Assembly (NCBI GenBank): GCA_011959285.1
Contig: BLLW01000031.1
Span: 1-40,455 of the forward strand
Origin: Lachnospiraceae bacterium
GTDB taxonomy: Bacteria > Bacillota > Clostridia > Lachnospirales > Lachnospiraceae
Length of the DNA: 40,455 nt
Reading direction: 5' to 3'
A model generated the notes under the pieces. The model searched no databases, was not told the DNA's origin, and was given only the letters and a program-made list of their open reading frames with translations. Shown piece after piece: positions 1 through 39,159 of this stretch. Both the position numbers and the translations under genes were made by a program. Numbering within the stretch: position 1 is the stretch's first letter; each line of letters starts with the position of its first letter.

Positions 1-1901
1 GGTGAATTAATATAGTAAAGGATTTCTATTGCTTTCAAAATCTTATTTTTTATAATGTCAATCATACTTCTGTCTTGATGTTCACATTCCATAAAAAAGA
101 CAATGATTTGTATTCTCTTATAGAACTCATACTCTATATAACTGTTTTTTAACTGTATTGTCCTCTTAATTACATCATTGACATCTGCTCCTTTATACGA
201 ATTTAATGTTGCATCAACAACAGATTTTATATTAGGTCTCGGATGTATTAAATACAACAGCCTGTTAATAATATATGTCTGGATTTTTTTGTTATATTTA
301 TCTTTACTAACAATGTCGTATAATCTTCTGATTAATTCTAACCTACCAACACTGTCATTAGTTAATTGGCGATATATTTCAGCAAATAATTCTTGTTTTT
401 TGGAAATATAGTTTCCATATAAGAATAAAACTGTACCAAATCTACATTTTGATGCAATTTCATGTTTATATGTGTCATAATCAATATGAAGTTTTTCCAA
501 AAAATCAATAAACTCCACATGCTCTTGGTAATTTCCATTGTTAATATCTATATCAATACTGTCCGTCGTCAACTCAAATTCAATCGATTTTAAAGCTTCT
601 TCCTTTAGGTATTCTTTATCATCTGGTCCTTTAATATAATAAGCCGTACCTAAACAATGTTGAAATAGTCGACCTGTTCTTCCAACCAAATTATAAAAAT
701 CGAATGCATCAAAATTTTCTCCAAATCTTCTGGCAGGTTTTGTTATAATTATATTCTCTGCCGAGGTATTTACTCCTTCCAACAATGTCGATGTACATAA
801 CATTCTTTGATAGAACTTTTCATTTTTATCATTAAATAAATCCAATTCCAGCATTCTTATTCCAAGCGGAAGCTGTCCATGATGAACTAAATATCCACAT
901 TCCATTGCATGTAAAATGGACCACTCCTCATGAATTTCCATTTTTGCCCAGCTAACAAACTCATCAAGCAATGGATTGGATGGCTGTTCATTGTTATATG
1001 GCTTTTGAATCTGTTGTATATACCCATCAAGCTCTCTTACCGTTGGAAAATAAATAAGTGTATTTCCACTTAATTTATTTAATAATTCATTTGTTTTAAA
1101 AATTCGGTCTTCCTCCCTCAAAACAGGATATGTCTTTACCTCATTCACTACTGGTGAAAAATTAGTACCATAAAAGACAGGTACATCATCCAGTTTATCT
1201 AAATTCTCTATACCTTTAATAAAAGGTGCTAATAATACATACTTTTTGCTTATTTCCACCAAATTGTAATATGCCAAATTTAGTATTAGTACCCTATCAT
1301 CCTCTTCATCTCTTTGTAACTTGTATATCTCATCAATAACAAGGAAATCAATACTTTTTATAATCTCATGAATCTCCACATCTACAACCCGATCATGTGT
1401 AACTAAAAAAATATTTTTCTGAGCGGAATCATACTCTTTATCCTTTTCAATTGATAAATAAACATTATATTCCCCATACACATTCTTATATTGATTTATT
1501 ATTTTTCTCTTATATTCATCAATCAATGCAAGTGTAGGTACAACCAATACAATATTTTGAGGCTTATATCTCGCTATATATTCAAATATTACGAATGTTT
1601 TACCAAAACTAGTAGGCGCACTAAAAATCAATCCTTTATTCTCACAAATAAGCTGAATAATTTTTAATTGCTCCGGATGTAAAGAAATTTCCTTATCCAA
1701 GCAGCTAACAGCAAACCCATTATATATAGCTGAATTTAATGAGAAAACATTAGAATACATTGTCAAGCCCAATGCATATAAGGATTCTGCATTTTCTTCA
1801 GCGAATTTTGTTTGATTTTCACTATTATTCATTTCACGAATATATAATTCTCTATAAACTTGTGGATCGACTAATTCATATTGCTCTTCTTTGATATTCA
1901 T
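1..1901 (-). CDS. hamB: HamB-like SF2 helicase of Hachiman defence (partial, C-terminus beyond left edge)
   Basis: This is an ATP-dependent superfamily 2 helicase, the expected partner of the HamA nuclease in the Hachiman anti-phage system. The frame from an ATG at 1901 stays open to the left edge, giving about 633 residues. Visible motifs are Walker A SAPTSFGKT near residue 95, Walker B VIDEIYK near residue 190 (DEIY rather than DEAH or DEAD), and motif VI LVGRTGRL near residue 405. The start overlaps the end of hamA by 26 nt in another frame, indicating translational coupling. The assignment rests on the helicase motifs plus the adjacent DUF1837 protein. The missing C-terminal part cannot be judged. 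Confidence 0.85.
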   Translation of the reverse strand, partial: MNIKEEQYELVDPQVYRELYIREMNNSENQTKFAEENAESLYALGLTMYSNVFSLNSAIYNGFAVSCLDKEISLHPEQLKIIQLICENKGLIFSAPTSFGKTFVIFEYIARYKPQNIVLVVPTLALIDEYKRKIINQYKNVYGEYNVYLSIEKDKEYDSAQKNIFLVTHDRVVDVEIHEIIKSIDFLVIDEIYKLQRDEEDDRVLILNLAYYNLVEISKKYVLLAPFIKGIENLDKLDDVPVFYGTNFSPVVNEVKTYPVLREEDRIFKTNELLNKLSGNTLIYFPTVRELDGYIQQIQKPYNNEQPSNPLLDEFVSWAKMEIHEEWSILHAMECGYLVHHGQLPLGIRMLELDLFNDKNEKFYQRMLCTSTLLEGVNTSAENIIITKPARRFGENFDAFDFYNLVGRTGRLFQHCLGTAYYIKGPDDKEYLKEEALKSIEFELTTDSIDIDINNGNYQEHVEFIDFLEKLHIDYDTYKHEIASKCRFGTVLFLYGNYISKKQELFAEIYRQLTNDSVGRLELIRRLYDIVSKDKYNKKIQTYIINRLLYLIHPRPNIKSVVDATLNSYKGADVNDVIKRTIQLKNSYIEYEFYKRIQIIVFFMECEHQDRSMIDIIKNKILKAIEILYYINS

Positions 1902-2832
1902 CCTGTTTCATCACCGCTTTCTTTATTGCTACCTCAACAAACCTATTTTTGTCAATTACTGGCAACGAAATAAAAATATAACTGACATTTAATCCAAAAA
2001 AATTCTTTTTGGTAATTTTGTCCAATAATTCATTAATATAATGTTCTGGAGAATTTTTCCCTTTCCCATTTCCATGTGCAATAAAAATCGGAACTCCAAT
2101 TGTCTTTATATCTGCAATTTCTATCAATTTTTGAAAAGATATACATAATTGTTTTGCTTCTCCAAATATTTCCTCAAATTCTCTTGATAATTTAAAAGCA
2201 TCCTCATCTGCCAATACTATCCTATATTCCTCCCGTATTTGCTGCTCGTAATTTTCCAATGAACGGTTCGCCAATATTATTCCATTATTAATATCTTTGC
2301 TAAATTTTGACTCACCAAAATAAATAATTTTATTAGAAGTATCCAAAAATAGAGTATCGATTCCAAATACACTCATATTTCTGTCTGTTGTACATCTAAA
2401 TTTGGGTAAAATGCAATCCAACTCAAAAAATTTTGTCAGCAAAATATGGAATATATATTCACCTATTTTTCCAACTTTATCATTTTGTACTAACAAATTT
2501 CCATTATCATCTATTAAATGATATTCCTCTCCTAAAACAGTTTCTATTTCTTCATTAATATCTCCAACTGTCAACAATTCTAGTTTTTCATTTAAAAATA
2601 TACTGATGTTATTATATAATTTTGCATATTGCTTTTCATCTCCAGTAAATGGTATCTTAGAGGCCCTCTTAGCATAGTTAAGCAAATTATCCTCGTCAAA
2701 TATGTAATCTGTAAGGCCATCCACTAACTTCTCCGCATCATAAAAATCTGCATATACAAAGGAATACGCGTCTTTTTGATAATATACATTAAATCCATCA
2801 AATATTTTTATCTGCACTGTATCATTTGCCAA
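1876..2832 (-). CDS. hamA: HamA-like DUF1837 nuclease of Hachiman defence
   Basis: The protein has about 318 residues. It is the effector nuclease expected to be held in check by HamB until phage-related DNA damage is sensed (knowledge of the Hachiman family). The PD-(D/E)xK-like core is visible as GIDTLFLD followed by IIYFGESKF, giving the D...ESK pattern of HamA. I start it at TTG 2832, which has a GGAGGTGA ribosome binding site 8 nt upstream. A longer reading reaches 2889, almost touching brxC, but has no such site. It sits 62 nt behind brxC on the same strand and overlaps hamB, so it is probably transcribed with the BREX genes. A Hachiman pair directly after brxC, where pglX is usual, is odd. 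Confidence 0.85.
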   Translation of the reverse strand: MANDTVQIKIFDGFNVYYQKDAYSFVYADFYDAEKLVDGLTDYIFDEDNLLNYAKRASKIPFTGDEKQYAKLYNNISIFLNEKLELLTVGDINEEIETVLGEEYHLIDDNGNLLVQNDKVGKIGEYIFHILLTKFFELDCILPKFRCTTDRNMSVFGIDTLFLDTSNKIIYFGESKFSKDINNGIILANRSLENYEQQIREEYRIVLADEDAFKLSREFEEIFGEAKQLCISFQKLIEIADIKTIGVPIFIAHGNGKGKNSPEHYINELLDKITKKNFFGLNVSYIFISLPVIDKNRFVEVAIKKAVMKQDEYQRRAI

Positions 2833-2894
2833 ATAATTCACCTCCGATTTTTTCCACAATATTATGATAGCATCAGCATTGGTGCACATTATTG

Positions 2895-5800
2895 TTAAAA
2901 CTCAATATTTATAATTGTGCCCGCATCCATCTCTGATATCAAGTTCATTCTTAATTCTGCTAAATATCGGTCCAAATCTTCCACTGATTCAATCCTCCAT
3001 GATGAGGATTTACTAATTTTTTTGAATGTCACATTTTTAATATGTTGTGAATGATATCCATTTTCTTCTGCAACCTTGTTTACCTGCTGCTCTATCAAAT
3101 CTGTATCATACCGTCCGTTTTCTTTTGCTTCTACTTCAAGTTTCTTTCTGACTTCCTCAGCTTTTTTCAATGCAATATCCTGATCCATCTTATCCATTTC
3201 ATTCAGAAGACGGATTTTTAATGCTTCTGCTCGATCTGCATAACCTCTTAGTGTAGATACATTGGTACAACTTTCTGCGCCGTTCTGTATTTCAAAGAAC
3301 ATATCATTATATGGATTGATTTTGCTTTCCTTATATTCTTTTGTATTCAATACCTCAAACACTCGTTTCTGGGACTCTGCCACAGACGCAAGTACAGGTG
3401 CAAGCTGTTCGTCCAATACCTTGGAATAAGAATCTGTAAACTGTTTTAAAAGTTCCGGCAGTTTTGGAATATCTGCAAATGGCTTATTTTTCTTTACAAT
3501 CGTCCGGATTGCGTCTACAACACTCTCCAGTTTTGCATCTACAATGTACGTTTTGCTGTCATCATATTTTTCCAAATACAACAGCGCTTTATCAAAAATA
3601 CCTTTCTGCTCTCCTGCGAAAAATGCCTTAATTGGTTCATAGTCTTCTGCAAAATCAAGCAAATCATCCTGCTTCTTTGATACTGTTTGGAAAAACTCTA
3701 CCGGAGACTGAATCTGCACAATATCAGACATTATCCTGATACCTTCTTCAATCACTTTTAATCCCGGATACTTAGCTCTGTCATAATCCTTTTTCATAAC
3801 CCTAAGTTCTGTAATAAGTTTATTTGCAAAGGATATGAAATAATTCATAACTGCATCCTCATCATCAGATGGGCTGCTTGTATGGAACAGCTCTTTAAGG
3901 ACGTCCCTGACTACTTTTTTATCTTTATCTTGCACACGGACACGTTCCTCCATCATCAGCTTTTCAACAAATGCTTTCTTAGTTATATAGTTGATGATTT
4001 CCTCTACAGCTTTATTCATCATGGTAACGCTTGCACCATTAACAGTGAAAGACAGTTCTCCCCTCTTAAAGAGCTTTGCCACAAGCCACTGAACATCATC
4101 TTCCACAAATCCATAAGGTGCTCTCATAAATCTGTCCTTGATGGATTTCATAGATGTCTTCACGTGCATCCGACTATTACCTGCAACATACTGTAATACA
4201 TCATCAAGTGCATGGATATTAGGCTCTGTACCACCTTCCAGATTAAGGGTAATCTGATTGCTGGTCTTTAAAAGCTTTCTAATTTCATCCTCTCCCATAG
4301 CTGCATCAATATAATCTAACTTATGATATACAGTCTTTACTAATCTGCCAAGAGCTTCATTCATTCTTGCAGAGACTTCTTTTGCGCTTATCTGCGCCCG
4401 ATCCCCATTCACATAGATAACAGCATCCTTTAACGATTCTGTCAGGAACAGTTTGGCATTCGCGTTACGCTCTCGCATTTCAAGTCTCTTTGCTTCCTTG
4501 ATACTCTCATACTTGGATAATGCAGAAGATGTATTTAAACGTAAGAATTTTTCAATCTTTAAATATCTCTGTATCTCATCCATGAAAGTACGGTCATCCG
4601 GTAAAACAGCCAAAACTTCCCTGCCCTGTCCGGATACCATTCTAAGTGTTGTTTCGTCCGTACCATAATCAGATGCGGGGGTAAGAATACGCACTCCAAC
4701 ATCAAAATTCTGTGTAGGCTTATAAGGTCTGTCATCTACGATCTGATTAAAATTAAATGAGTATCTGCCATTGAATGCAGGGTATTTATATTTCTTATCT
4801 GTAAAAATATTCTCAAAAATCATTTCAGATACTTTATTGATAATCTCTGCCATCTCTACACTCTGGCTTTCAATCTCTCTATTGATTTCCTGTTCTTCGT
4901 CAGTAAGGAATATGTAAATATCCCCGTTCTTCTGTACAAGGTTTTGGCGCATCAATACTTTCAATGCATCTTCCACTTTTTCCTTCAGGGCAATTCTATC
5001 ATCATCAATACTGGATGCCATAAGACTTGTGATATTGTCAATATTCGCCACGACTACTTTATCAACATATTTAATCATGAAAAGTACTTTTAAGACATCC
5101 ACGGCAAATACGTTTTCTTTATGTTCCGGATTGATCATGTCATTTTCATATGCCCGGATAATAACTCCACGGTGGCTGTGGTCTAAAAAATTTTCAAGTG
5201 CATCATAAAATGCATAAAATGGAATAATTGTTCCAACTTCACATTCCTTATATTCCATAGCTGACTCTTTGAACATTGCCAACATGGAACGCTCTCCTTC
5301 AGACAAGTGCTTTCCGGATGCACCGTGGGTACGAATGGATGTTAGTACACTTGCAAGCAAATTGAACTGATAAGGTACAAACGGATAAACGCACGCAAAA
5401 TCATTTTCATCTACATACAGCTTCTTTTCCACTCCATCATTGAATGTAATCAGGTTCTTGATAATGGTAGTCTTCTGACCGTATAACAGGCGTAAGGTCT
5501 GTGCAGGAGTCTCTTTCTTTTCCAAAATTCTTTTCTTGATTACTTCATCCACATTAGCAGACGATAAAGACAACCTTGTATCAAAACGTCCCTGAATTTT
5601 TGAAAAGTCATTGCCCTTAACCATTGTTACCGAATCAATATCCTGCTGGCTGGTCACGATAACCCATGCCTTACCCATACATTCCTTGCCAAGTTCTTCG
5701 GTCACGGTCTGTAAATTTAACATGAGTTTTGAGTCTTCTCCAATATACTGACCAATTTCATCTACCAAAAATACTACATGATGATTATTGCCCTTACGGT

Positions 5801-6569
5801 CAATGTATGCTTTCACTCGTTTTGCAAAATCTTCAATACTAATCTGATATGGTTCAGCTGCTTTTTCACACCAGTTACGCGCAGCTGCCTCACTCATGAA
5901 ATCCATCCCAGTAAGGACTTCCACTACATCATCCTGAATGAAATCAAAGTCCTGTCTGGAATCTTCCCATGCCTCTCCATACACTTCTTCAAACTTCCGT
6001 TTGAACTCGTTGTATTGTCCTTCCTCTGTCAGCTTTCTTTCCAAATCTGCCAAGAAAGGCATTGCTCCACAAAAGCCCTGCATTTCATTAAATACTTTTA
6101 AGAATACATTAACGATTGCATCCTTATTCTGCTTACTATTTGAGCCACTTTTAGCGTCGATATTAAAAAGTACAACATCCGTATCTGTATCAGCAGCCAG
6201 CTTCATATCTGCTAGCACTATTCTGTCTACAATCTTTGGCTTACCTTCGGTAAGGCTGTCATCTGCAAAATAATCTATGGCTTTTTTATCACCCACAGAT
6301 TTATTTGCCAGCAAATAAGAAAGAATTTTTAAGAAGTGAGATTTACCACTTCCAAAGAAACCGGAAATCCATACACCCATTTTAGGAGTAGTTCCGACAA
6401 TACCCTTTTTATATGCGGAAAAGAAATCTGCAAAGTACTTCTGCAATTCCTTTGTTACTACATATTCATCCAATTCCTGCGCTACATTTTCTGCTTCGCT
6501 TTGACCAACAATGATTACACCCTGTATATCACGGTCAATCTCTTTTTCAAACATTTCTTTCATTAACAT
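2895..6569 (-). CDS. brxC: BrxC, large BREX P-loop ATPase
   Basis: BrxC/PglY-type ATPase of the BREX phage-exclusion system, 1224 residues, close to the usual family length of about 1200. Walker A GFFGSGKSHFLK lies near residue 70, after the family-like opening in which the protein is predicted to bind DNA or partner subunits. VFLVDEIGQYIG, around residue 270, fits Walker B. The C-terminal third is charged and probably coiled coil. The ATG at 6569 has AGGAGG 10 nt upstream. It is the third BREX gene, after brxA and brxB, but is separated from brxB by 116 nt holding two hairpins, unlike the 4-nt overlap between brxA and brxB. In most BREX loci the next gene is pglX; here it is hamA. Confidence 0.93.
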   Translation of the reverse strand: MLMKEMFEKEIDRDIQGVIIVGQSEAENVAQELDEYVVTKELQKYFADFFSAYKKGIVGTTPKMGVWISGFFGSGKSHFLKILSYLLANKSVGDKKAIDYFADDSLTEGKPKIVDRIVLADMKLAADTDTDVVLFNIDAKSGSNSKQNKDAIVNVFLKVFNEMQGFCGAMPFLADLERKLTEEGQYNEFKRKFEEVYGEAWEDSRQDFDFIQDDVVEVLTGMDFMSEAAARNWCEKAAEPYQISIEDFAKRVKAYIDRKGNNHHVVFLVDEIGQYIGEDSKLMLNLQTVTEELGKECMGKAWVIVTSQQDIDSVTMVKGNDFSKIQGRFDTRLSLSSANVDEVIKKRILEKKETPAQTLRLLYGQKTTIIKNLITFNDGVEKKLYVDENDFACVYPFVPYQFNLLASVLTSIRTHGASGKHLSEGERSMLAMFKESAMEYKECEVGTIIPFYAFYDALENFLDHSHRGVIIRAYENDMINPEHKENVFAVDVLKVLFMIKYVDKVVVANIDNITSLMASSIDDDRIALKEKVEDALKVLMRQNLVQKNGDIYIFLTDEEQEINREIESQSVEMAEIINKVSEMIFENIFTDKKYKYPAFNGRYSFNFNQIVDDRPYKPTQNFDVGVRILTPASDYGTDETTLRMVSGQGREVLAVLPDDRTFMDEIQRYLKIEKFLRLNTSSALSKYESIKEAKRLEMRERNANAKLFLTESLKDAVIYVNGDRAQISAKEVSARMNEALGRLVKTVYHKLDYIDAAMGEDEIRKLLKTSNQITLNLEGGTEPNIHALDDVLQYVAGNSRMHVKTSMKSIKDRFMRAPYGFVEDDVQWLVAKLFKRGELSFTVNGASVTMMNKAVEEIINYITKKAFVEKLMMEERVRVQDKDKKVVRDVLKELFHTSSPSDDEDAVMNYFISFANKLITELRVMKKDYDRAKYPGLKVIEEGIRIMSDIVQIQSPVEFFQTVSKKQDDLLDFAEDYEPIKAFFAGEQKGIFDKALLYLEKYDDSKTYIVDAKLESVVDAIRTIVKKNKPFADIPKLPELLKQFTDSYSKVLDEQLAPVLASVAESQKRVFEVLNTKEYKESKINPYNDMFFEIQNGAESCTNVSTLRGYADRAEALKIRLLNEMDKMDQDIALKKAEEVRKKLEVEAKENGRYDTDLIEQQVNKVAEENGYHSQHIKNVTFKKISKSSSWRIESVEDLDRYLAELRMNLISEMDAGTIINIEF

Positions 6570-6599
6570 TTGCCGTTATCCTCCTAATTATCATAAGTT

Positions 6600-6625
6600 G
6601 AAAAACGCCGCCCTTTGCGTTTTTC
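6600..6625 (-). terminator. Terminator- or attenuator-like hairpin between brxB and brxC
   Basis: A perfect 9-bp stem GAAAAACGC/GCGTTTTTC with an 8-nt loop lies 31 nt before the brxC start. On the minus strand the descending arm ends in TTTTT, so it looks like an intrinsic terminator or attenuator inside the operon. It could let brxA-brxB be made in excess of brxC and the genes behind it. Confidence 0.5.
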
Positions 6626-6639
6626 CAAACATTTAGAAC

Positions 6640-6670
6640 CTCTAAGGATGCGTCTTTTGCAGCCTTAGAG
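6640..6670 (-). repeat. Second hairpin in the brxB-brxC gap
   Basis: An inverted repeat CTCTAAGG/CCTTAGAG of 8 bp is extended inward past a mismatch by TGC/GCA. It lies directly upstream of the terminator-like hairpin on the minus strand. Two adjacent hairpins in a 116-nt gap suggest RNA-level control or protection of the brxA-brxB message from 3' decay. Confidence 0.45.
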
Positions 6671-6685
6671 ATTCTTAATGTTTTG

Positions 6686-7279
6686 TTATCGCACCAATCG
6701 GAATGCCCGGTAATAATTATCTTCCGGATATTCATTAAATATGATTAGCTCCTGTTCAGTGTAAGTACCCGGATAGAATAATACCATTGGTACACTGGCA
6801 AAAGTCTGGGGCATATTGTAGAGAATTTTGTTAAACACTTCCGGAGCTTGCAACAATGGGAAGCACTTTCCCACACCAGTCAGAAACACGACAGCATTCT
6901 CTGATGTATTCTCTGCAATATATTTTACTAGCAGGTTTTCCTTGTCAGTAATTTTTAGCGTATGCTGGATTGCGTCCTGCAATTTCTTAATGCCACGCTT
7001 TTCTTCCTGTGCGTAACACTTTTCCATAAAGTTCTTGCTCTGTAGATGTTCTATGATTAAATCGTACAGATCATATACCACCAACTCAAAACCATCTGTT
7101 CCTTTGATGTTCTTATTTTTCAAATAGAAAATTCGATTTCTTACTGTCAGTTCATCCTCCGGTGCATAATCAAATACCCAATAATTGACCTCATTTGCTT
7201 TTCCCTTTGTCTGTCTGAAAGATGGTTTCTTTATCAGCACTTCCATCTGATCTAATCGTTCTTCTATATTTGTCATCAT
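6686..7279 (-). CDS. brxB: BrxB (DUF1788) BREX protein
   Basis: DUF1788 protein of 197 residues, the usual size for BrxB. It is a conserved BREX component of unknown biochemical role, needed for defence in studied type I systems. Recognised from the overall sequence: an N-terminal segment with ERLDQMEVLIKKPSF, a central VVYDLYDLIIEHL, and a C-terminal LFYPGTYTEQEL followed by a tail ending YYRAFRLV. The start ATG overlaps the brxA stop as ATGA, so the pair is translationally coupled. It has no membrane segment and is expected to be cytoplasmic. The identity is strengthened by BrxA and BrxC on either side. Confidence 0.92.
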   Translation of the reverse strand: MMTNIEERLDQMEVLIKKPSFRQTKGKANEVNYWVFDYAPEDELTVRNRIFYLKNKNIKGTDGFELVVYDLYDLIIEHLQSKNFMEKCYAQEEKRGIKKLQDAIQHTLKITDKENLLVKYIAENTSENAVVFLTGVGKCFPLLQAPEVFNKILYNMPQTFASVPMVLFYPGTYTEQELIIFNEYPEDNYYRAFRLVR

Positions 7280-7878
7280 CTTACCCCCGAAAGAGCTTTT
7301 ATTATCTGCTCCATATCATTGTCAATAAGCCATCTTTCCATATCCGGTTCCATTATCGGTTTAAAGATTTTTCTGACATCCTTACCCTTGTCTGTCACAC
7401 CTGCCTCAAATAAAAATGTCTTGTAATTCTTTCCCAATCTCGCAAATGTAGCATCTGTCCATCCAGCTACTTTCTCACTCTGTAACTTCTTGTCCTTAAA
7501 GAAAATATTTAAATCACTTGGCTTATACTCATTGCTTCCAATGATCATTTTCTCTCGTATTACCTCATACACAAAATCAAAAAATAAAGTGTCATTCACC
7601 ATAATAGCTGCAAGATTAAAAATCTTTTGTGTCGATACATCTCCGTCTAAAAACACTGGATAGAAACTATCCCCTATCGCTTTTATTCTTGACGATACCG
7701 TATTAAAAATCTGTGTAGCTCTCTCTGGGGTAGATGCCGCAAATATATTTTCATTTCTGCATAACTCTTTAATTTCTTCAAATCTCTTTCCTTCAGATAG
7801 CAGCTTTACCTCATTACGAAATTCCATAAACCAAAAAGAATGCTTTACTGCTCCAGCACTATATTCTTTTCTTTCCAT
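7276..7878 (-). CDS. brxA: BrxA (DUF1819) BREX protein
   Basis: About 200 residues matching BrxA (DUF1819), a small mainly helical BREX protein with NusB-like folds that binds DNA in characterised homologues. Typical segments are YSAGAVKHSFWF at the start and MVNDTLFFDFVYEV in the middle. I place the start at ATG 7878, with AAAGGTG nearby; an in-frame GTG 12 nt upstream (7890) is the alternative. It follows the small XRE-type regulator by 19 nt and overlaps brxB by 4 nt, so regulator, brxA and brxB form one transcript. It is the first effector gene of the BREX block. Confidence 0.92.
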   Translation of the reverse strand: MERKEYSAGAVKHSFWFMEFRNEVKLLSEGKRFEEIKELCRNENIFAASTPERATQIFNTVSSRIKAIGDSFYPVFLDGDVSTQKIFNLAAIMVNDTLFFDFVYEVIREKMIIGSNEYKPSDLNIFFKDKKLQSEKVAGWTDATFARLGKNYKTFLFEAGVTDKGKDVRKIFKPIMEPDMERWLIDNDMEQIIKALSGVR

Positions 7879-7897
7879 GTGTATTTGCACCTTTCCA

Positions 7898-8531: not shown

Positions 8532-8885
8532 TCATAAGCAATAAATGATTTCTTCTCTTACAATCTCCTCTGCCCTCGCCCTAATGCTATTCATTCTCTG
8601 TACCCAAAGCATCTGATTCTGTGCCTTTAACTGCTCCGTCACTCCCTCCCGCTTTGCCATCTGCTCCACTAGCAAATCAAATCTTTCCTCTGCCTGTTCC
8701 TGTATCATCAACAAATGTTTCTTCAATTCGCCCGATAACAGTAATCCCGAATAAATACCTCTCCTATGATTCTCCAAATAGGATTTCCTCATCAGTCCAA
8801 ATTTCCTCAACTCTCCCTCCGGCTCCGGATCAGGAATTAAGTTCGGAATCAAATAATCTCCACATTTTTCATATGTTAAATTCAT
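8532..8885 (-). CDS. tnpV: TnpV family mobile-element protein (element A)
   Basis: About 117 residues matching the TnpV family, small proteins common on Clostridia transposons and mobilizable elements whose function is not known. The start is MNLTYEKCGDYLIPN at ATG 8885, with AGAGG nearby; a longer in-frame reading lacks a ribosome binding site. Conserved stretches are LLLSGELKKHLLMIQEQA and a tail ending EEIVREEIIYCL. It starts 16 nt after the relaxase stop and so belongs to the mob operon. Element B carries a close homologue at 29465-29815 in the same position, which makes it a backbone marker. Confidence 0.88.
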   Translation of the reverse strand: MNLTYEKCGDYLIPNLIPDPEPEGELRKFGLMRKSYLENHRRGIYSGLLLSGELKKHLLMIQEQAEERFDLLVEQMAKREGVTEQLKAQNQMLWVQRMNSIRARAEEIVREEIIYCL

Positions 8886-8901
8886 AATATTGTCCTCTTT
8901 C

Positions 8902-10296
8902 TTATAAGCTAATATCATGCTTTTTAATAGTTTTTTCTTTTTCCTGCGTATCTCTCTCAAACCCTAAATACTGCCTTATGTTCTTCAACTGCTTATCCGT
9001 TTCCATTGCCTCCTTTTCTGCTGTCTGGTATGTTTTCTTCAACTTTGCTTTTTGCACTGTCATTGCATCATATTCCACCTGCATCTTTTCCACATCTAGT
9101 GAAGAAGTCTTTATCCCATATCGCTTCAACATATTTTCAGCGCCGCCAAAGAGAATAATCTGTGTTTCATGACTCCGGAAATAGGCATCCTGATCCTTCG
9201 CTTTCTCATATCCCCTCTGGTATTTTCTGTTTGCCATATACTGTTTTGCGTATTTTAGGATTTCTGCTTTGGCTTTCATCTCATGCTCCAAATCCACAAT
9301 CGCACTTCGTGCCGCTTTTGCTGTAGCATTTCTCTCTGATATTTTCTGTTTCAGTTCCTCTACCGAACCGCCCTCTGCATAACTCGCCGCAGCAATCTTT
9401 AAATTCTGTATATCCGCCCAATGCTTTAACGCACCATTTTCTTGAAACTTCTCCTTGTCTGTATCAATCAAAGTCCGCTTTGCATCCGGTCGCTTTGGAA
9501 AGGGAAATTTCCTTTTTACAGGGAATCTTTCCTGTGCCTTTACACGTTTTTCGATTCTCTCTCTGATTAATTCTTTCGTATATCCCACACCGAAATTCTT
9601 TTCACTGACACGTGTAAAACGTGTCTGCCCTGAAGCAGAAAAAAATAAATATTTCAGCGCATTGTCTCCAAAAGTTTCCCCTTTTACCTCATATTCTTTT
9701 GTCTGCATCCGGCTGATAAAATCTTCATAGCTGTGTGCTTCACGAATAGCATTGTCCATATCAGATTTCATCCGCGCTTTCCAAGAAGTTCCCGCCTCTG
9801 CCATCTGCCACTCATAATATGTCTTTCCTTTTTGTCCCGATGGAATAATGACCGACAATCCATGTTCCCTGCACAGTTCGTCTGACAAATTCCGTATCTG
9901 CCTGTATGTACGCTTACAGTCATTGTATTTTTTATGTTCCACATTATCAACCGCACAGAAAATGATATGATTATGACAGTGTTCCTTGTCTACATGCGTT
10001 GCAATGACATAACTGTATTTATTTTCTAACAGCTTGTCCGCAAGCTCTATCCCTACCTGATGAGCCGTATCAAAATCCACTTCTCCCGGCGCAAATGACT
10101 GAATCAGGTGGAATGCCTGCTTATTCCCAACACCGGAAGATTTTGATAACGCATCCATGAAATCATAATGCGCTGTCTCTATCCCACAGGCAAACGAATC
10201 TATCAAAATCTGTCCGTCAGTTTTCTCCGGATTGCAGATATATTTTAATGCTTTCTGTACGGTTGCTTTGACAGCATGGATTCGTGTGTACGCCAT
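8902..10296 (-). CDS. HUH relaxase (pfam03432-type), element A
   Basis: Relaxase of 464 residues that should nick the element's oriT and stay covalently bound through a tyrosine. The N-terminus AYTRIHAVKATVQKALKYI carries candidate tyrosines, and the HUH metal site is visible as HVDKEHCHNHIIF near residue 120. The C-terminal half is charged and probably coiled coil. The start overlaps mobC by 52 nt, typical for mobC-relaxase pairs. There is no coupling protein or type IV secretion gene nearby, so the element is mobilizable rather than self-transmissible. Element B has an unrelated MobV-type relaxase at this place. A general-purpose symbol would be mobA/nikB-like, but I leave it blank. Confidence 0.88.
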   Translation of the reverse strand: MAYTRIHAVKATVQKALKYICNPEKTDGQILIDSFACGIETAHYDFMDALSKSSGVGNKQAFHLIQSFAPGEVDFDTAHQVGIELADKLLENKYSYVIATHVDKEHCHNHIIFCAVDNVEHKKYNDCKRTYRQIRNLSDELCREHGLSVIIPSGQKGKTYYEWQMAEAGTSWKARMKSDMDNAIREAHSYEDFISRMQTKEYEVKGETFGDNALKYLFFSASGQTRFTRVSEKNFGVGYTKELIRERIEKRVKAQERFPVKRKFPFPKRPDAKRTLIDTDKEKFQENGALKHWADIQNLKIAAASYAEGGSVEELKQKISERNATAKAARSAIVDLEHEMKAKAEILKYAKQYMANRKYQRGYEKAKDQDAYFRSHETQIILFGGAENMLKRYGIKTSSLDVEKMQVEYDAMTVQKAKLKKTYQTAEKEAMETDKQLKNIRQYLGFERDTQEKEKTIKKHDISL

Positions 10297-10586
10297 ACCT
10301 GTTTTATCAGCTCCTTTACTTCTTCCATATCTTCTCGATAAATATTACCTGTAGAACTTATCCTTGCCGCTATCTGGTTCAAGCTTTTGCTGGTTCTGCT
10401 TAGATTGACATTGTAGACATGCAGTTCCGAGTAATCTACAAAATAAGTATATCCGTATAAAATTAAATGTCGAAGATAATCGTTTTTGTTCCTATATTCT
10501 GCATTTTTACACTTGGTATCTAAAATATACTTTTCATCATCACTCAACCGTAAAATAAGCTGATTGCTTCGTTTTCGTTTTTCCAT
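10245..10586 (-). CDS. mobC: MobC-like mobilization accessory protein
   Basis: A 113-residue MobC-family protein that helps the relaxase bind and open oriT. The N-terminus has the ribbon-helix-helix-like pattern NQLILRLSDDEKYILDTK, and the later part has the family-typical LNQIAARISSTGNIY. ATG 10586 is chosen because GGAGG lies 6 nt upstream; a TTG two codons earlier overlaps that site. The 3' end overlaps the relaxase start by 52 nt. No counterpart exists in element B, where MobV-type mobilization does not need MobC. Confidence 0.85.
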   Translation of the reverse strand: MEKRKRSNQLILRLSDDEKYILDTKCKNAEYRNKNDYLRHLILYGYTYFVDYSELHVYNVNLSRTSKSLNQIAARISSTGNIYREDMEEVKELIKQVWRTHESMLSKQPYRKH

Positions 10587-10689
10587 TCTCAACCTCCATT
10601 ATTTTATTGACTAAAAATTGATACTATTGTTTTCTTGCTCTGCATTCCGTTCTATATGCATTTCATAAGGGGTTAGAGGATTTTTCCCC

Positions 10690-11426: not shown

Positions 11427-12344
11427 CTATCTGCGTAATTTCTTCTCCGCCAAAGTCTCATATCCCTTTGCATTGGCGCAAATATCCGTAATAAAAGTCA
11501 CTCCTGCCTTCTCCGCTAAATCCGAATAATTTCGGAGCAGACAGCCGCCTCCGCCAATCACATACAGATGTACCAACCCTTCCTTATATCCATAATCCAC
11601 CAAACGCCTTCTGATATTTTCTGTATACCTCGTTGCAATATGTTCTACTTTCTTAGCGGTACTATCTGTTCTTTCCTGTAAACCGTTCCGAAGAAGCGGT
11701 TCTATCAGCATTTCAGGAATATCCTCTCCGTTTTCTTTTGATAATTCTTTCTGTATCTCTTTCATACAGATGCCCACACCAAATTTGTCCGTCACAAGGC
11801 TCTTTTCCAACGGTTTATTGTCAACAATCTGCATAACATTCATAGTCCCGTTTCCAATGTCCGCCAGCATATTCATTCTCTGCATTGCTCCTAAATTAAC
11901 AACAGCCGCAAATCCCTGTGGAAATATTTCTACGCCGCACAAATGCACATGATATCTCTCTTTTCGGAACTCAAAATGCAGTTCCTGTTCTTTCATCAAA
12001 TAGCGCTTAAAGTCTGCTCCCTGACTTTTCATCCATGCAAGTGGAAGTCCAACTGCCAATATCACATTTGCCTCATGAAGTCCTCTGAACTTCAATTCCT
12101 CCGCAAATGCCGCCAGTGTCAGAATATAAAAGGCTTCGGAATCTGTTTTATTCCCCTGATATACCAAGTGCGACTCTCCAATTACATAAAACTTACTCTT
12201 ATATTTCACAAAATTCTTACTGACAATCGGCTCTTCCTCCATACATTCCACGCCTGTCCGGAATACCCTGTGTGCGGTCTTCATATTTCCATATCCATGA
12301 TCCACACCGACAATTATTCTTGTATTGCTGTTAAATTTCTGCAT
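11427..12344 (-). CDS. ParM/StbA-like actin-type ATPase, element A
   Basis: A 305-residue actin-fold ATPase of the ParM/StbA family. Such proteins polymerise to segregate low-copy plasmids; on an integrative element it would stabilise the excised circular form. Phosphate-binding loops are visible as VGVDHGYGNMKTA at the N-terminus and ADIGNGTMNVMQI near residue 160, and the adenosine site as YVIGGGGCLLRNY near the C-terminus. AGGAGG lies 9 nt before the ATG. A close homologue sits at 31991-32917 in element B, with long identical stretches such as AHRVFRTGVEC. Both copies have a cysteine/glycine-rich GGGGCLL motif. Confidence 0.87.
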   Translation of the reverse strand: MQKFNSNTRIIVGVDHGYGNMKTAHRVFRTGVECMEEEPIVSKNFVKYKSKFYVIGESHLVYQGNKTDSEAFYILTLAAFAEELKFRGLHEANVILAVGLPLAWMKSQGADFKRYLMKEQELHFEFRKERYHVHLCGVEIFPQGFAAVVNLGAMQRMNMLADIGNGTMNVMQIVDNKPLEKSLVTDKFGVGICMKEIQKELSKENGEDIPEMLIEPLLRNGLQERTDSTAKKVEHIATRYTENIRRRLVDYGYKEGLVHLYVIGGGGCLLRNYSDLAEKAGVTFITDICANAKGYETLAEKKLRR

Positions 12345-12441: not shown

Positions 12442-12580
12442 TTGCTCAAGACAAGCCTCTGCTATAATAAATTTGCAAGATTTACATAGAAAGGCTTATC
12501 CTTTTTATGTCGCAGATTAAATTGTTCCACCAATTTAATCTGCATCCAAAATGTCCCTGTTTCCGGCAGGGGCATTTTCA
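12442..12580 (+). ncRNA. Putative antisense small RNA across the integrase stop codon, element A
   Basis: On the plus strand an extended -10 (TGC-TATAAT, 12463-12468) with a TTGCTC-like -35 precedes about 100 nt ending in a terminator hairpin at 12551-12575 (9-bp stem ATGTCCCTG/CAGGGGCAT, then TTTT). It runs antisense to the integrase 3' end. A perfect 13-bp inverted repeat (12512-12524 with 12531-12543) lies inside it and covers the integrase stop. Element B has the same promoter core (TGCTATA-TA-ATTTGC) and terminator at the same place. Confidence 0.45.
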
Positions 12581-13644
12581 TTTGATGCCTCATTCCTCTT
12601 CCGGTTCAGCATATCCGCAACTTTCTTCTGCTCGTTGGGATATAAATGCCCATATGTATTCAGGGTAATCTTGATATCCTTGTGTCCCATGCGTTCCTTG
12701 ATGACCATAGGCGCTACTCCCTGATGCGCTAGATACGCACATGCGGAATGTCTTAGATCATGCACCCTGATTCTTTTTACTCCCGATTTCTGAATGTGTC
12801 TTATCATCTTATGCTGCACAGCTTCACATACAATGGGGAAAAGCCTTTCGCTGTCGGGAAATTCACACAGTTTATCACAATACGCCTTGATTTCCTGCGT
12901 CAAAAATTCGGGAATATCTATTGTTCGGACTGACTGTTCCGTCTTAGGCGTTGTGATGACATCTTTTCCCCCTGTACGGTAATAAGTTTTTGAAATGGAT
13001 ATTTTGTTCTCCTGAAAATTTACGTCACTTTTTAATAACGCAAGTAATTCTCCAATGCGCATACCCGTCCAGAATAAAATTTCAAACAGCACATAATATC
13101 TGCTTCCCACTTCAATCGTATTAATGAACTGCTGGTACTCCTCATAAGTCCAGAAATCCATTTTATCCGCATCTGACTTCCCCATTTTCTTTACTTTCTT
13201 GCAGGGATTGTTTGTCAGGTTGTAGATATTGGAAGCATGGGTAAATAACGCTGTCATCTGATTCTGAAGCATCCGCAGATATGTCTGCGAATATCCAGCC
13301 TCCCGCATTTTGTTCTGCCACTGGATAATGTCTGCCGGTGTAATTTCATTCATGGACTTATTTTCAAAGTACGGAAGGATATGCCGTTCAATCATATATC
13401 TCTTATTTTTGATTGACCGTTCCTTTAACTCTCCCTGCTTATCCCTGAAATAAGTCTCAACAAAAGCTCCCACTTTCATATTCATGTCTGCTTCTGTTGT
13501 CTGCATAAACTGTTCCTCATACTCTTTCGCCTCCCTCTTTGTTTTGAAACCTCTTTTGCACTTTTGTTTCTGTCTGCCCGTCCAATCATTGTAACGGAAC
13601 ATACAATACCATGTTCCCCTCTGCTCATCTTTATAGACTGACAT
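12535..13644 (-). CDS. int: Tyrosine recombinase (integrase) of element A, predicted tuf target
   Basis: Site-specific tyrosine integrase of 369 residues. The N-terminus (YKDEQRGTWYCMFRYNDWTG) is an arm-binding domain of the AP2-like kind, then comes a core-binding helical domain around residues 60-160. The catalytic residues are visible: R in TGMRIGELLAL, HxxR in HDLRHS, and the H and nucleophile Y in GHKDIKITLNTYGHLYP. AAAGGAG lies upstream of the ATG. Since the element ends in tuf 3' sequence, this enzyme probably recombines that site. The close relative in element B (35181-36290) shares domain order and the ENAPAGN tail. Confidence 0.93.
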   Translation of the reverse strand: MSVYKDEQRGTWYCMFRYNDWTGRQKQKCKRGFKTKREAKEYEEQFMQTTEADMNMKVGAFVETYFRDKQGELKERSIKNKRYMIERHILPYFENKSMNEITPADIIQWQNKMREAGYSQTYLRMLQNQMTALFTHASNIYNLTNNPCKKVKKMGKSDADKMDFWTYEEYQQFINTIEVGSRYYVLFEILFWTGMRIGELLALLKSDVNFQENKISISKTYYRTGGKDVITTPKTEQSVRTIDIPEFLTQEIKAYCDKLCEFPDSERLFPIVCEAVQHKMIRHIQKSGVKRIRVHDLRHSACAYLAHQGVAPMVIKERMGHKDIKITLNTYGHLYPNEQKKVADMLNRKRNEASNENAPAGNRDILDAD

Positions 13645-15546: not shown

Positions 15547-15568
15547 CATAAATTCAATGAATTTTCGA

Positions 15569-15622
15569 TTACTCAATAATCGTAGCCACACGACCAGAAC
15601 CTACTGTACGTCCACCCTCACG
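15569..15622 (-). other. Attachment site: tuf 3'-end copy (A/B junction)
   Basis: On the minus strand the 18 codons REGGRTVGSGRVATIIE-stop are the exact C-terminus of bacterial EF-Tu. Homology stops abruptly upstream of CGT GAG (the next codons in frame include a stop), so this is not part of a full tuf gene. 34 nt (15568-15601) are identical to the copy at 39105-39138. The remaining codons differ only at synonymous positions (GGA CGT ACA GTA here against GGT AGA ACT GTT). It is the junction between elements A and B. Confidence 0.9.
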
Positions 15623-16328: not shown

Positions 16329-17450
16329 TTATTCCTGCACTTCACTAACCAACAGTTTTCTCAAATCATCCACATCCGGCAAAGCTTTTTTCATTTCATC
16401 AGACATATCTTTATATGTTTTATAAGTTGCAACTCCCAGCGGCTTCTCATAATCTCTTATTACATAATCTACAAATGCTTTGTTCATATCCTTACACAAT
16501 ATTAACCCTACCGAGGGATTTTCATGTTCCTTCCTTACCTTGTCGTCTAAAATTGTCAGATAAGTATTTAATTGACCTAAATATGACGGTTTAAATTTAC
16601 CTGTTTTCAGTTCCACTGCAACAAGGCAATTCAGTTCTCTATTAAAGAATAAAAGATCAATGAACATTTCTTCACCTGCTACTTCGATTCTATATTGATT
16701 ACCCATAAAGATAAAGTCTGTTCCAAATCTTACAATAAATTCTTTAATATTGTTTACAATCTGATTCTCAATTATTCGTTCGTCAATGTCCTCACTTGCT
16801 TCACCAAGATTTTCTGTATTTATGAAATCCAACAAATAGTTATCCTTGAACGCTTTTGTTGCTTTTACAGCAAACTTTGCATCATTAAGTGTATCAGAAA
16901 AGTTATTTGGTAGATTTCCCTGTTTGTGATACAACCCTGACTTAATATATTCTCTTAAAGTATACTTATCCCACGCTCTGACCGCACATTCATGGATATA
17001 AAATAAACGTTCAGAAATATCCTTCGTTTTTGACAATATTTCCATATGATGCGTAAAACCCAGTGATATAAATTCATTCCAATCTATATCGCCAGCCAGC
17101 GGCTGGCGAATTGCTATCAGCAAGCCTTCACCATTCACATCTAAATCGTCAGCCATTGGCTGGCGATTTACGTAAGGACTCCACTCATCATAAAATAAAC
17201 GCATATTTTTAATATTGCTTTCTGAAAAGCCTCTGATTCCCATCAATTCCGACTTTAGTCTGCCGGAAATGGTCTTAATCGCATCTGTGCCCCAAGCACC
17301 ATTTCTTGTATTTTTCGAAACATACTTTCCGATTCCATAGTAGAGAGATAATAATTCCGCATTCCCCACTTTAGCAGCCCTAAATCTACTCTTTTCAACA
17401 GCTTGTTTTATGGCAACAACTGCATATTCATACTGATTTTTTGAATCCAT
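16329..17450 (-). CDS. DUF1016 / YhcG-type PD-(D/E)xK nuclease
   Basis: About 373 residues. The N-terminal DUF1016 domain has ELLSLYYGIGKYVS, a GTDAIKTISGRLK segment and the helical GFSESNIKNMRLFYDEW. The C-terminal half carries the PD-(D/E)xK site: D in EEMFIDLLFFNRELNCLVAV and ELKTG directly after. Such proteins are found in defence islands and mobile elements; their target is not settled. ATG 17450 has AGGTGA just upstream; an in-frame GTG lies 9 nt earlier. Oddity: residues around 110-135 contain two repeats of RQPMADDLD/RQPLAGDID encoded by two DNA palindromes, looking like an inserted segment. Confidence 0.88.
   Translation of the reverse strand: MDSKNQYEYAVVAIKQAVEKSRFRAAKVGNAELLSLYYGIGKYVSKNTRNGAWGTDAIKTISGRLKSELMGIRGFSESNIKNMRLFYDEWSPYVNRQPMADDLDVNGEGLLIAIRQPLAGDIDWNEFISLGFTHHMEILSKTKDISERLFYIHECAVRAWDKYTLREYIKSGLYHKQGNLPNNFSDTLNDAKFAVKATKAFKDNYLLDFINTENLGEASEDIDERIIENQIVNNIKEFIVRFGTDFIFMGNQYRIEVAGEEMFIDLLFFNRELNCLVAVELKTGKFKPSYLGQLNTYLTILDDKVRKEHENPSVGLILCKDMNKAFVDYVIRDYEKPLGVATYKTYKDMSDEMKKALPDVDDLRKLLVSEVQE
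17089..17167. repeat. Two palindromes inside the DUF1016 gene
   Basis: TCGCCAGCC-agc-GGCTGGCGA (17089-17109) is a perfect 9-bp hairpin. ATCGTCAGCC-att-GGCTGGCGAT (17145-17167) is the same palindrome with one mismatch. They lie 35 nt apart and are read in frame as RQPLAGDID and RQPMADDLD. They look like REP-type palindromic units tolerated within a coding sequence. Confidence 0.8.
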
Positions 17451-17550
17451 TCTTTTCACCTGCTTTCCATGCCTATCATTGACCGCATCATAACAATACG
17501 ATATATATTAATCACTGATATCTGCCTAACTATACTCCCCTTTATCAATT

Positions 17551-17905: not shown

Positions 17906-19774
17906 TTAATCAGCTATTTCGGTTGCAAAAACTGCACCTAATGTTCTTCTCAACTTTTCAGTAGTTCCTCCAGTAGGTGCATTCACATCCAATTTCCTTA
18001 TTAACTCTGAATAATCATTTTCATCCAAATTACATACAATGTCTAATCTTTGCTTAGCACGTGATGATCCAACATAAAATTCCATTCCGTTTTTCCCAGT
18101 AAATGATTCTTTATTTAAATCCACCATAATTACCGCTTCAGACTCTAACCCTTTAAATTTTCTACATGTGGTTATTTTATATTCACTACCATTGTATTCA
18201 TATAGGTAATATCCAGAGTTTTCTCCTTCTCCCTGTTTTATATTATCTGCCAGACAACAAAATTCTATTTTACCAGGTGTCAATATAACAATATCTTCAA
18301 CTTGATTTTCTTTATACTTGTCTAGGATAGTATGTACCTTTTGAATAGACTCATCTTCATCTTTTGCAATATGTAATACTGGCTTAATTGGCTCATACCA
18401 TACACTTGCAACAATAGGTTTAATTGCTTTATTTTTTTGGTCCTTCAACGGTGTCACCGATGTCCTAGCAATTTCCTTTGTATTTCTACAATTTTTCTTT
18501 AGAGTCAATCGACAATCACTATTCAAAATACAATCAGGAAGCCTATAATATACATTTGTACTTCCCTGAATCATCTGATATTTATCATAGAACAAATAAA
18601 ATGTTCCAGAATTCGACAGCACCACCTCTTGCAGTGTATCAATTATGGAGCAATTTTTCTCAGCATCAGATGCAGAAATTCCAACTAATATGTCTATTAG
18701 TCCAAAATCCTGTCCCTCATCAACAATAATATGTTTATATCCAAATTTCTCTGGATCATCAACGCAATCATACAACCATTCCATAAGGCCATCATAATCT
18801 TTGTAGTTTCCGGTTGCTTTCTGTGTAAGCTGTGAAATAGTCATAAAATCAACATTCTTATACTCATCTCTACGAGATTTTATAGGGTTGGACTTATATA
18901 TCTTAATCAAATTATCACAAAGAAGTCGATTATAACATAAGAATAGAACTTTTTCTCCTTCAATACTATGTAGTTTTGCTTTATAAGCAGCTATCATTGT
19001 TTTACCTGTTCCCGCCGCGCCATTAATAACAGCAGTCTCCTGATCTTCTAAAAAATCCAGCAAGCGATACTGCTCATATAACAACTGATTCATCTGTTCT
19101 TCCATAACAATACTTTTAGCAGATGGTGATGGTACAAGATTAAACGTCGGACACAAAACAGAATCAATAAGTAACTGAAACTCTTCCTCTGTTAATTTTG
19201 TTTCTTCTACAGTATTTCTAATCTGGCTCGGCAATTTTAAAGAAAAAATCTCTGCAATCTTTTTTGTCGGGTTAATTAAATCCTCTGCTACCATTGTAAA
19301 TTGAGAATCTGCATTTTCTGGCAATCCATTATTCGCTATTTCATCAAAGTCAATTTGGCTTACCTTAAAGAAGAAAACTGCATGCATAACTTTACACTTT
19401 TTAAATAGTTTTTGAACTTCTTCATTAGGGTGCGACTTTATCTTTGCAATGATAGCTCTTTTAGCTGTTGCAATTTGATTATAAGGTCCGTCATGGTCCA
19501 TTATTCTTCCTGATGAATATTTCCACGCACGCATTGTCCCATCATAATTTATATTAGAGCCATTTTTAGCTTCTATACACAGTATGCCCTTTTTAGAATT
19601 TGCCACAACAAAATCCAATTCTCGTTCGTACAAAACACCATTTTCGACAACCGTTGCACTTACACTATGAAAAACATAATAATCATCCGGTAATTTTTTT
19701 AACGCATTAAAAACTACACCTTCATCACTTTTAGGATCAAATTCCTTTGGTACAGGCGGTATCATATGTGCCAT
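17906..19774 (-). CDS. NERD-domain SF1 helicase-nuclease
   Basis: A 622-residue fusion. The N-terminal NERD (nuclease-related) domain has ERELDFVVANSKKGILCIEAK, with the D...EAK catalytic pattern of PD-(D/E)xK enzymes. A UvrD/Rep-like superfamily 1 helicase follows: Walker A AVINGAAGTGKT near residue 256, Walker B HIIVDEGQDFG near 353 (DEGQ), CRKFKGLESEAVIM, and motif VI YVGSSRAKQRLD near 568. It starts 3 nt after the DUF1998 helicase stop, so the two are co-translated. It probably degrades or unwinds DNA as part of the same defence system. Annotated Druantia loci do not require such a gene, so it may be an accessory. Confidence 0.88.
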   Translation of the reverse strand: MAHMIPPVPKEFDPKSDEGVVFNALKKLPDDYYVFHSVSATVVENGVLYERELDFVVANSKKGILCIEAKNGSNINYDGTMRAWKYSSGRIMDHDGPYNQIATAKRAIIAKIKSHPNEEVQKLFKKCKVMHAVFFFKVSQIDFDEIANNGLPENADSQFTMVAEDLINPTKKIAEIFSLKLPSQIRNTVEETKLTEEEFQLLIDSVLCPTFNLVPSPSAKSIVMEEQMNQLLYEQYRLLDFLEDQETAVINGAAGTGKTMIAAYKAKLHSIEGEKVLFLCYNRLLCDNLIKIYKSNPIKSRRDEYKNVDFMTISQLTQKATGNYKDYDGLMEWLYDCVDDPEKFGYKHIIVDEGQDFGLIDILVGISASDAEKNCSIIDTLQEVVLSNSGTFYLFYDKYQMIQGSTNVYYRLPDCILNSDCRLTLKKNCRNTKEIARTSVTPLKDQKNKAIKPIVASVWYEPIKPVLHIAKDEDESIQKVHTILDKYKENQVEDIVILTPGKIEFCCLADNIKQGEGENSGYYLYEYNGSEYKITTCRKFKGLESEAVIMVDLNKESFTGKNGMEFYVGSSRAKQRLDIVCNLDENDYSELIRKLDVNAPTGGTTEKLRRTLGAVFATEIAD

Positions 19775-28713: not shown

Positions 28714-28765
28714 AGCAACTCCTTCTGTAAAAATCACTTTGCAATATTATATAGTTATCTCTATT

Positions 28766-39083: not shown

Positions 39084-39105
39084 GATTTTACTAAATAAAT
39101 TATAA

Positions 39106-39159
39106 TTACTCAATAATCGTAGCCACACGACCAGAACCAACAGTTCTACCACCCTCACG
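39106..39159 (-). other. Attachment site: tuf 3'-end copy (B/C junction)
   Basis: Minus-strand codons REGGRTVGSGRVATIIE-stop, as at 15569-15622. 34 nt are identical and the remaining codons differ by synonymous changes. Homology to EF-Tu ends before CGT GAG (the next codons read FPKA rather than EF-Tu sequence). It marks the right end of element B and the left end of a further element. Confidence 0.88.

Follow-up and report, generated by a model that had tools for sequence, protein, structure and literature searches.

Is a Hachiman pair that directly follows brxC part of a new defence system without methylation, or has it been inserted into an ordinary bacteriophage exclusion (BREX) operon? 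The question is raised by the left end of a 40,455-nucleotide (nt) stretch of DNA from a Lachnospiraceae bacterium (assembly GCA_011959285.1, contig BLLW01000031.1), referred to here as the window, which comprises the whole of one contig (C31) in a 317-contig genome. There, brxA, brxB and brxC run into hamA and hamB, and a first reading of these letters (the original prediction) took the Hachiman genes to stand in the place of pglX and pglZ, either as an insertion or as the partner of a recruited BrxABC. Comparison of the contigs of this genome and of related loci indicates that the locus is very probably a complete type I BREX system on a mobilisable island, with a self-contained Hachiman pair inserted as cargo between brxC and pglX, the two forming layered and autonomous defences.

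The five genes lie in the order brxA-brxB-brxC-hamA-hamB, all on the minus strand (Table 1), and brxA, brxB and brxC are present in type I BREX order. BrxA matches PF08849 (7.7e-57) and the PADLOC BrxA model (1.3e-74), and the BrxC of the window is the sole match to its model in the whole genome. Open reading frames (ORFs), PADLOC and Pfam bear out the gene order, the shared strand, the 62-nt gap between brxC and hamA and the hamA/hamB overlap, which measures 26 nt. The longest hamA ORF begins at ATG 2889, 5 nt past brxC; an alternative start, TTG 2832, has a GGAGG 8 nt upstream (2845-2841), yields a gap to brxC of exactly 62 nt and is, from these sequence signals, the likely one. In the alignment HamA retains D178...G192-E193-S-K195 (numbered from 2889), which is the D-GEXK motif named as the HamA catalytic motif in PMC12799240. 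A PDB sequence search (E 0.01) returned no solved structure matching HamA; HamB matched 8zue_B (3.1e-41) and 8vx9_B, a HamB (7.2e-6), and its motifs SAPTSFGKT (94-102), DEIYK (190-194) and GRTGR (407-411) are intact.

The left end of the window cuts hamB, and the operon resumes on two other contigs of the same genome, C139 and C109. Judged from these contigs, the apparent lack of pglX and pglZ is an effect of the contig end, and this part of the original prediction does not stand. The left end of C31, as its reverse complement, has exactly 13 nt in common with the start of C139, and the right end of C139 exactly 20 nt with C109, again as reverse complement. Among the six ends of the three contigs there is no further overlap of at least 9 nt, and the 20-mer of the second join is present in the genome at those two ends only. 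Reading frames run on across both joins: HamB passes from ...YYINS in the window to INSPARKMLKDMG... on C139, where positions 12-194 hold the remaining 60 codons and the stop (192-194), giving a protein of 693 amino acids (aa), and at the other join one ATPase ORF continues from C139 into C109 (Table 1). The HamB tail encoded on C139, when searched alone, was found directly behind HamB in nine of the ten nearest HamB loci, with 60% identity in one of them (L081); the tenth locus, L090, has a cut HamB.

Just 22 nt past the hamB stop, at C139:217, starts pglX, which encodes a full-length protein of the BREX-1 type (NF033452, 1423 bits, cut-off 500). It is the one PglX match over the cut-off in the genome, where two other, weak ones reach 27.4 and 25.3 bits. 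PglZ likewise has one match in the genome, on C109 (BREX-1 TIGR02687, 526.9 bits, cut-off 270.35; PF08665), and brxL adjoins it; the statement of a single copy covers BrxC, PglX and PglZ. The reconstructed order is thus brxA-brxB-brxC-hamA-hamB-pglX-ATPase-orf280-orf230-pglZ-brxL-orf150-DUF1016. The presence of PglX and PglZ in the genome, brxL beside pglZ and the overlapping contig ends support the proposal that Hachiman was inserted inside a BREX operon. According to the original prediction, a pglX-pglZ-brxL set to the left of hamB, without brxC-hamA adjacency elsewhere, would point to an ordinary insertion; such a set does follow hamB, and the adjacency did not recur as far as we sampled. 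Base composition agrees. The G+C content of hamA (0.289) and hamB (0.295), about 29%, is unlike the 35-40% of the BREX core (brxA 0.354, brxB 0.377, brxC 0.377, pglX 0.375, pglZ 0.379, brxL 0.400), so that hamAB looks inserted.

To place this arrangement among its relatives, we compared 101 BrxC loci from 99 genomes, some of them closely related. The BrxC search was positive in 39 of 392 genomes of the order (E 1e-100) and in 38/398 of the phylum, 4/37 of the genus and 40/397 of the family (E 1e-80); these samples share genomes, the window's own among them, and in each case the model also hit one of 14 control genomes. BrxC-positive G067, G135, G753, G826, G969 and G1110 were left out of the loci, as were second fragments of split matches. 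ORFs were called mechanically, and gap cargo was defined as same-strand ORFs of at least 60 aa. Of the 101 loci, 94 allowed measurement of the brxC-pglX gap, the excluded ones being L063, L073, L122, L126 and, for want of a called pglX or brxC ORF, L144, L147 and L157. No same-strand ORF of at least 60 aa lies in 73 of the 94 gaps, and 21 hold cargo of at least 100 aa. Cargo is present in 45 of 81 pglX-pglZ gaps (an ORF of at least 100 aa in 42) and in 11 of 60 pglZ-brxL gaps; ten loci have both brxC-pglX and pglX-pglZ filled. Neither HamA nor HamB was found in any of these three slots of the relatives, and none of the 94 measured brxC-pglX gaps holds Hachiman; in 27 of the loci, and in three more from the genus, the search used purpose-built hidden Markov models (HMMs) only, PF08878 being left out. 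Among plasmids, six of the 273 BrxC records besides the Escherichia fergusonii plasmid pEFER were compared, and pglX follows brxC in all six, in a gene table that is incomplete.

The brxC-pglX cargo is varied. Pfam was run on 13 of the 21 filled gaps (L059, L095, L142, L150, L151, L156, L161 and L163 were left out), and the cargo includes TIR, SEFIR and DUF1883-TIR proteins, a DUF3990 ADP-ribosyltransferase-like protein and a nucleotidyltransferase. In L113 the cargo matches DUF932, in L103 it has no match, and in L039 and L049 there is a sub-threshold zinc ribbon only, so not all cargo is recognisable as defence genes. Other gaps among the 13 hold a PsyrA/ShosA-like protein with a phosphoribosyltransferase (L096:6211-7701), a GmrSD_N protein (NsnA/PD-T4-2_A-like) with a HEPN gene (L091:6255-8089), or a type IIG restriction-methyltransferase with a 226-aa gene (L128:12331-15934). 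In the pglX-pglZ gap of two loci (L099:6034-9830, minus strand, and L101:9853-13649) an 881-aa Ppl-like ATPase is followed by a 387-aa protein, which in L099, the one of the two that was scanned, matches pAgo models (3e-17). The core itself also varies: pglX is represented by two consecutive genes in L040, L041, L043 and L045, the second of 869-891 aa, and is split into two ORFs in L098, L105, L124 and L142, doubled or split forms that could reflect specificity switching or decay. In L144 (G820:C36) the gene directly after brxC is pglZ; no pglX ORF separates the two, and there is no hamA.

Searches from the Hachiman side gave the same picture. All ten of the nearest HamB loci, at 48-67% identity, have hamA, and tblastn detected no BREX gene in the stretches surrounding these pairs; L086 and L087 give identical matches and are not independent, L089, with equal length and equal matches, is apparently the same contig as L078, and the hamA ORF called in L088 is just 173 aa long. 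A HamA protein search of the 392 order genomes returned four genomes, the window's own included, and in the other three (L078-L080) no BREX gene was found when the proteins encoded here were searched by blastp. PF08878 is present in 3/39 and 3/36 BrxC-positive genomes and in 0/14 controls, and within this sample of 39 + 36 genomes hamA stands beside brxC in the window's own genome only. A related-locus search with HamA alone gave 31 stretches, none of them confirmed; in plasmids HamA had no match, and HamB matched 27 records, all below 60% identity. A recurrent brxC-hamA pairing, which the original prediction proposed to look for in other genomes, was therefore rejected, as it was not found in the sampled relatives. 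The nearest other case is G226 (L069:15367-18519), where hamA and hamB follow the brxL of another type I BREX at a distance of about 1 kb, with one 299-aa ORF between, beside BREX yet outside the operon core.

How would the two systems work together? Two autonomous, co-expressed defences are the most likely arrangement; autonomy is also reported for BREX and BrxU in pEFER. The genes are tightly packed on one strand (62 nt between brxC and hamA, a 26-nt overlap of hamA and hamB, 22 nt between hamB and pglX), and the whole locus would be carried on one polycistronic transcript; a promoter/terminator scan, with counts near those of shuffled sequence (44 vs 39.1 and 4 vs 3.3), was uninformative on transcription. 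BREX would mark the host through adenine methylation by PglX and halt the replication of unmarked phage DNA, while HamAB would patrol DNA separately. PMC12278908 describes HamB as surveying DNA, detecting damage and freeing HamA, with Hachiman clearing DNA non-specifically; by that published mechanism, HamB meeting damaged DNA would here release HamA for non-specific DNA degradation. Inherited and expressed together with BREX, Hachiman would still be met by phages that escape BREX. Some observations weigh against this account. No contig spans either join, so the evidence for adjacency of the genes consists of short overlaps, frames and homology; a 21-nt pattern across the C31/C139 junction, with three mismatches allowed, found no match, as expected for split contigs. 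Composition may vary by gene, and three of the extra genes are near the core in G+C content: orf230 (0.348), orf150 (0.369) and DUF1016 (0.352). Finally, the DNA around the HamAB pairs of L081 (8.9 kb) and L090 (7.9 kb) is short, and BREX genes may lie farther off there.

The same fragmentation, 317 contigs with no contig across the joins, would allow C139 and C109 to have been binned wrongly from another strain, leaving the window's BREX broken after hamB. We consider this very improbable, in view of the matching ends and continuing frames at two joins, the homology of the HamB tail, the one over-cut-off match each for BrxC, PglX and PglZ, and the copies of a presumed tuf 3' end on both far sides. 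The proposal that HamAB recruited BrxABC into a composite system without methylation draws on the window alone, where hamA and no pglX comes after brxC, and on L144, which shows a BREX locus without pglX beside brxC, though without hamA. Against it stand the full-length BREX-1 PglX 22 nt past the hamB stop, and pglX, pglZ and brxL in the same genome on directly joining contigs; we regard it as next to impossible, since the contig joins refute it and both would have to be in error for it to hold. A coupling of Hachiman to BREX is easier to conceive, and still unlikely: as a guardian, HamAB would be triggered by DNA intermediates of BREX-blocked replication or by inhibition of BREX by a phage, and act as a last-resort nuclease. 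The co-directional, tightly packed hamAB within the operon fit such a role, as does the sensing of DNA damage by HamB (PMC12278908), and guardians of restriction are described in a review (PMC12707154). On the other hand, the pairing recurs in none of the measured gaps, the near HamAB pairs have no BREX gene in the surrounding stretches, and unrelated cargos occupy the same gap. In its fullest form, which we hold to be equally unlikely, HamAB would be a wired-in fail-safe, restrained while BREX works and activated once stalling or inhibition of BREX gives rise to DNA ends or unwound DNA, and last-resort effectors would dock in the brxC-pglX gap (TIR, SEFIR, PsyrA/ShosA-like with phosphoribosyltransferase, GmrSD/HEPN, Hachiman).

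An inserted, self-contained Hachiman pair within a complete BREX operon thus remains the preferred explanation, and it corrects a tempting misreading, in which a normal BREX, cut at a contig end, resembled a methylation-free hybrid. The gaps between the core genes of type I BREX are regular cargo slots in the sampled genus, family, order and phylum, with Hachiman as one cargo, and defence genes can be found by reading them. The effector-like cargo between brxC and pglX makes coupling to BREX a testable question.

The operon holds a further module, between pglX and pglZ, composed of the ORC/CDC6-like ATPase gene (G+C content 0.303), orf280 (0.319) and orf230. Family searches gave no match over the cut-off for the two small ORFs, and single-sequence HMMs did not find the module in the 101 related loci. 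It may be an undescribed accessory defence.

The BREX-Hachiman island spans about 29.46 kb between two copies of REGGRTVGSGRVATIIE*, which we take to be the C terminus of EF-Tu, encoded by the 3' end of tuf. All three copies of the 55-nt repeat read so. Those at 15568-15622 and 39105-39159 of the window are identical at 50/55 positions; the third, more diverged one (C109:1660-1714), which is the left boundary of the island, is identical at 42/55 and 47/55 to the other two, the best match in 20 shuffles of C109 being 30/55. A 25-nt pattern of the repeat with at most three mismatches missed the copy on C109, which was recognised by eye and then measured. A second element stands in tandem, between the tuf 3'-end copies at 15568-39159 of the window; it carries Mob_Pre, ParM-like and CHC2 zinc-finger genes of its own and, as cargo, the genes listed in Table 1. 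No PADLOC, Pfam or NCBIfam model matched its 1225-aa protein above the cut-off (the strongest match, to BfiI_DBD, was weak at 0.0087); the position of this protein suggests a DruH-like partner.

Table 1. Features of the BREX-Hachiman island and of the tandem second element (positions in the window unless a contig is named).
Feature	Position	Strand	Evidence and remarks
Contig-end overlap	1..13	-	Reverse complement is the first 13 nt of C139
hamB	3..1901	-	SF2 helicase, first 633 codons, open at contig edge; PADLOC HamB 9.2e-96
hamA	1876..2832	-	DUF1837 nuclease; PF08878 1.6e-15, 58 bits, cut-off 25
brxC	2895..6569	-	1224 aa; PADLOC BrxC 1470 bits; NF033441 1338.6 bits, cut-off 400
brxB	6686..7279	-	197 aa; PF08747 1.5e-33; PADLOC BrxB 4.7e-58
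brxA	7276..7890	-	204 aa from GTG 7890; in-frame ATG 7878, where the original prediction ended, also a possible start
TnpV-like protein	8532..8960	-	PF14198 3e-42
MobA/VirD2-type relaxase	8902..10296	-	PF03432 3.4e-36
NikA-like mobilisation protein	10245..10592	-	PF21983 1e-06, 29.2 bits, cut-off 27
ParM-like actin (ALP)	11427..12344	-	PF17989 2.8e-12
Tyrosine integrase of the island	12535..13644	-	PF00589 2.4e-23
Presumed tuf 3'-end copy, right boundary of the island	15568..15622	-	Reads REGGRTVGSGRVATIIE*
DUF1016/YhcG nuclease, second element	16329-17459		
NERD-helicase, second element	17906-19774		
DruE-like (Druantia-like) helicase, second element	19778-25069		PADLOC 1.5e-191
1225-aa protein, second element	25060-28737	-	Overlaps start of DruE-like gene
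ORC/CDC6-like ATPase	C139:4012-5448 to C109:9805-10077		PF24389 7.6e-13; zinc-ribbon/HHH-like tail, sub-threshold
orf280	C109:8966-9808		280 aa; HEPN, sub-threshold (0.012), and one weaker match
orf230	C109:8157-8849		230 aa; no family match
brxL	C109:3542-5596		PF13337 and PF20442 over cut-off; adjoins pglZ

The Hachiman pair itself resembles the described system, which (PMC12278908) has the same PF08878 HamA with D-GEXK and an SF2 helicase HamB encoded by adjacent, overlapping genes; it differs from that system in sitting inside another defence operon. Its close relative in L081 (Lachnospiraceae RUG13856; HamA 64% and HamB 67% identical, HamB of 693 aa in both) has, unlike the pair here, no BREX gene by tblastn in its 8.9 kb. 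A 2026 survey of BREX diversity (PMC12839542) mentions Hachiman, in its accessible sections, for HamB as a Ski2-like helicase and in a reference, and the searchable part of the open-licence PMC literature yielded no report of Hachiman inside BREX, which is no proof of absence. As cargo, the pair finds its counterpart in the type I BREX of pEFER (PMC8565348), which like the present locus is a complete brxABC-pglX-pglZ-brxL set with a foreign defence gene in the brxC-pglX gap. In pEFER one protein, the type IV restriction enzyme BrxU, makes up the cargo, encoded by a DUF262 gene 16 nt from brxC and 15 nt from pglX, whereas here a nuclease and a helicase form it; pEFER also has pglZ directly after pglX, and here a second module lies between them. 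BrxU alone is enough for defence according to that report, and works independently of BREX according to a review (PMC12707154). The ATPase/DUF4435 pair of Salmonella BREX is presumably PARIS-like and located at that same place, between pglX and pglZ. In the excerpted text on the Salmonella StySA BREX (PMC9009780), the ATPase and DUF4435 genes are co-transcribed with pglZ and most likely brxL, apart from brxABC-pglX, and their removal leaves methylation unaffected. An accessory ATPase with a partner is common to both loci; the excerpt describes no brxC-pglX cargo, and the ATPase here is ORC/CDC6-like. In the present locus the brxC-pglX slot, of the pEFER kind, and the pglX-pglZ slot, of the Salmonella kind, are both filled, and Hachiman within BREX is a new combination, one more instance of an arrangement already known, and does not amount to a new composite system.

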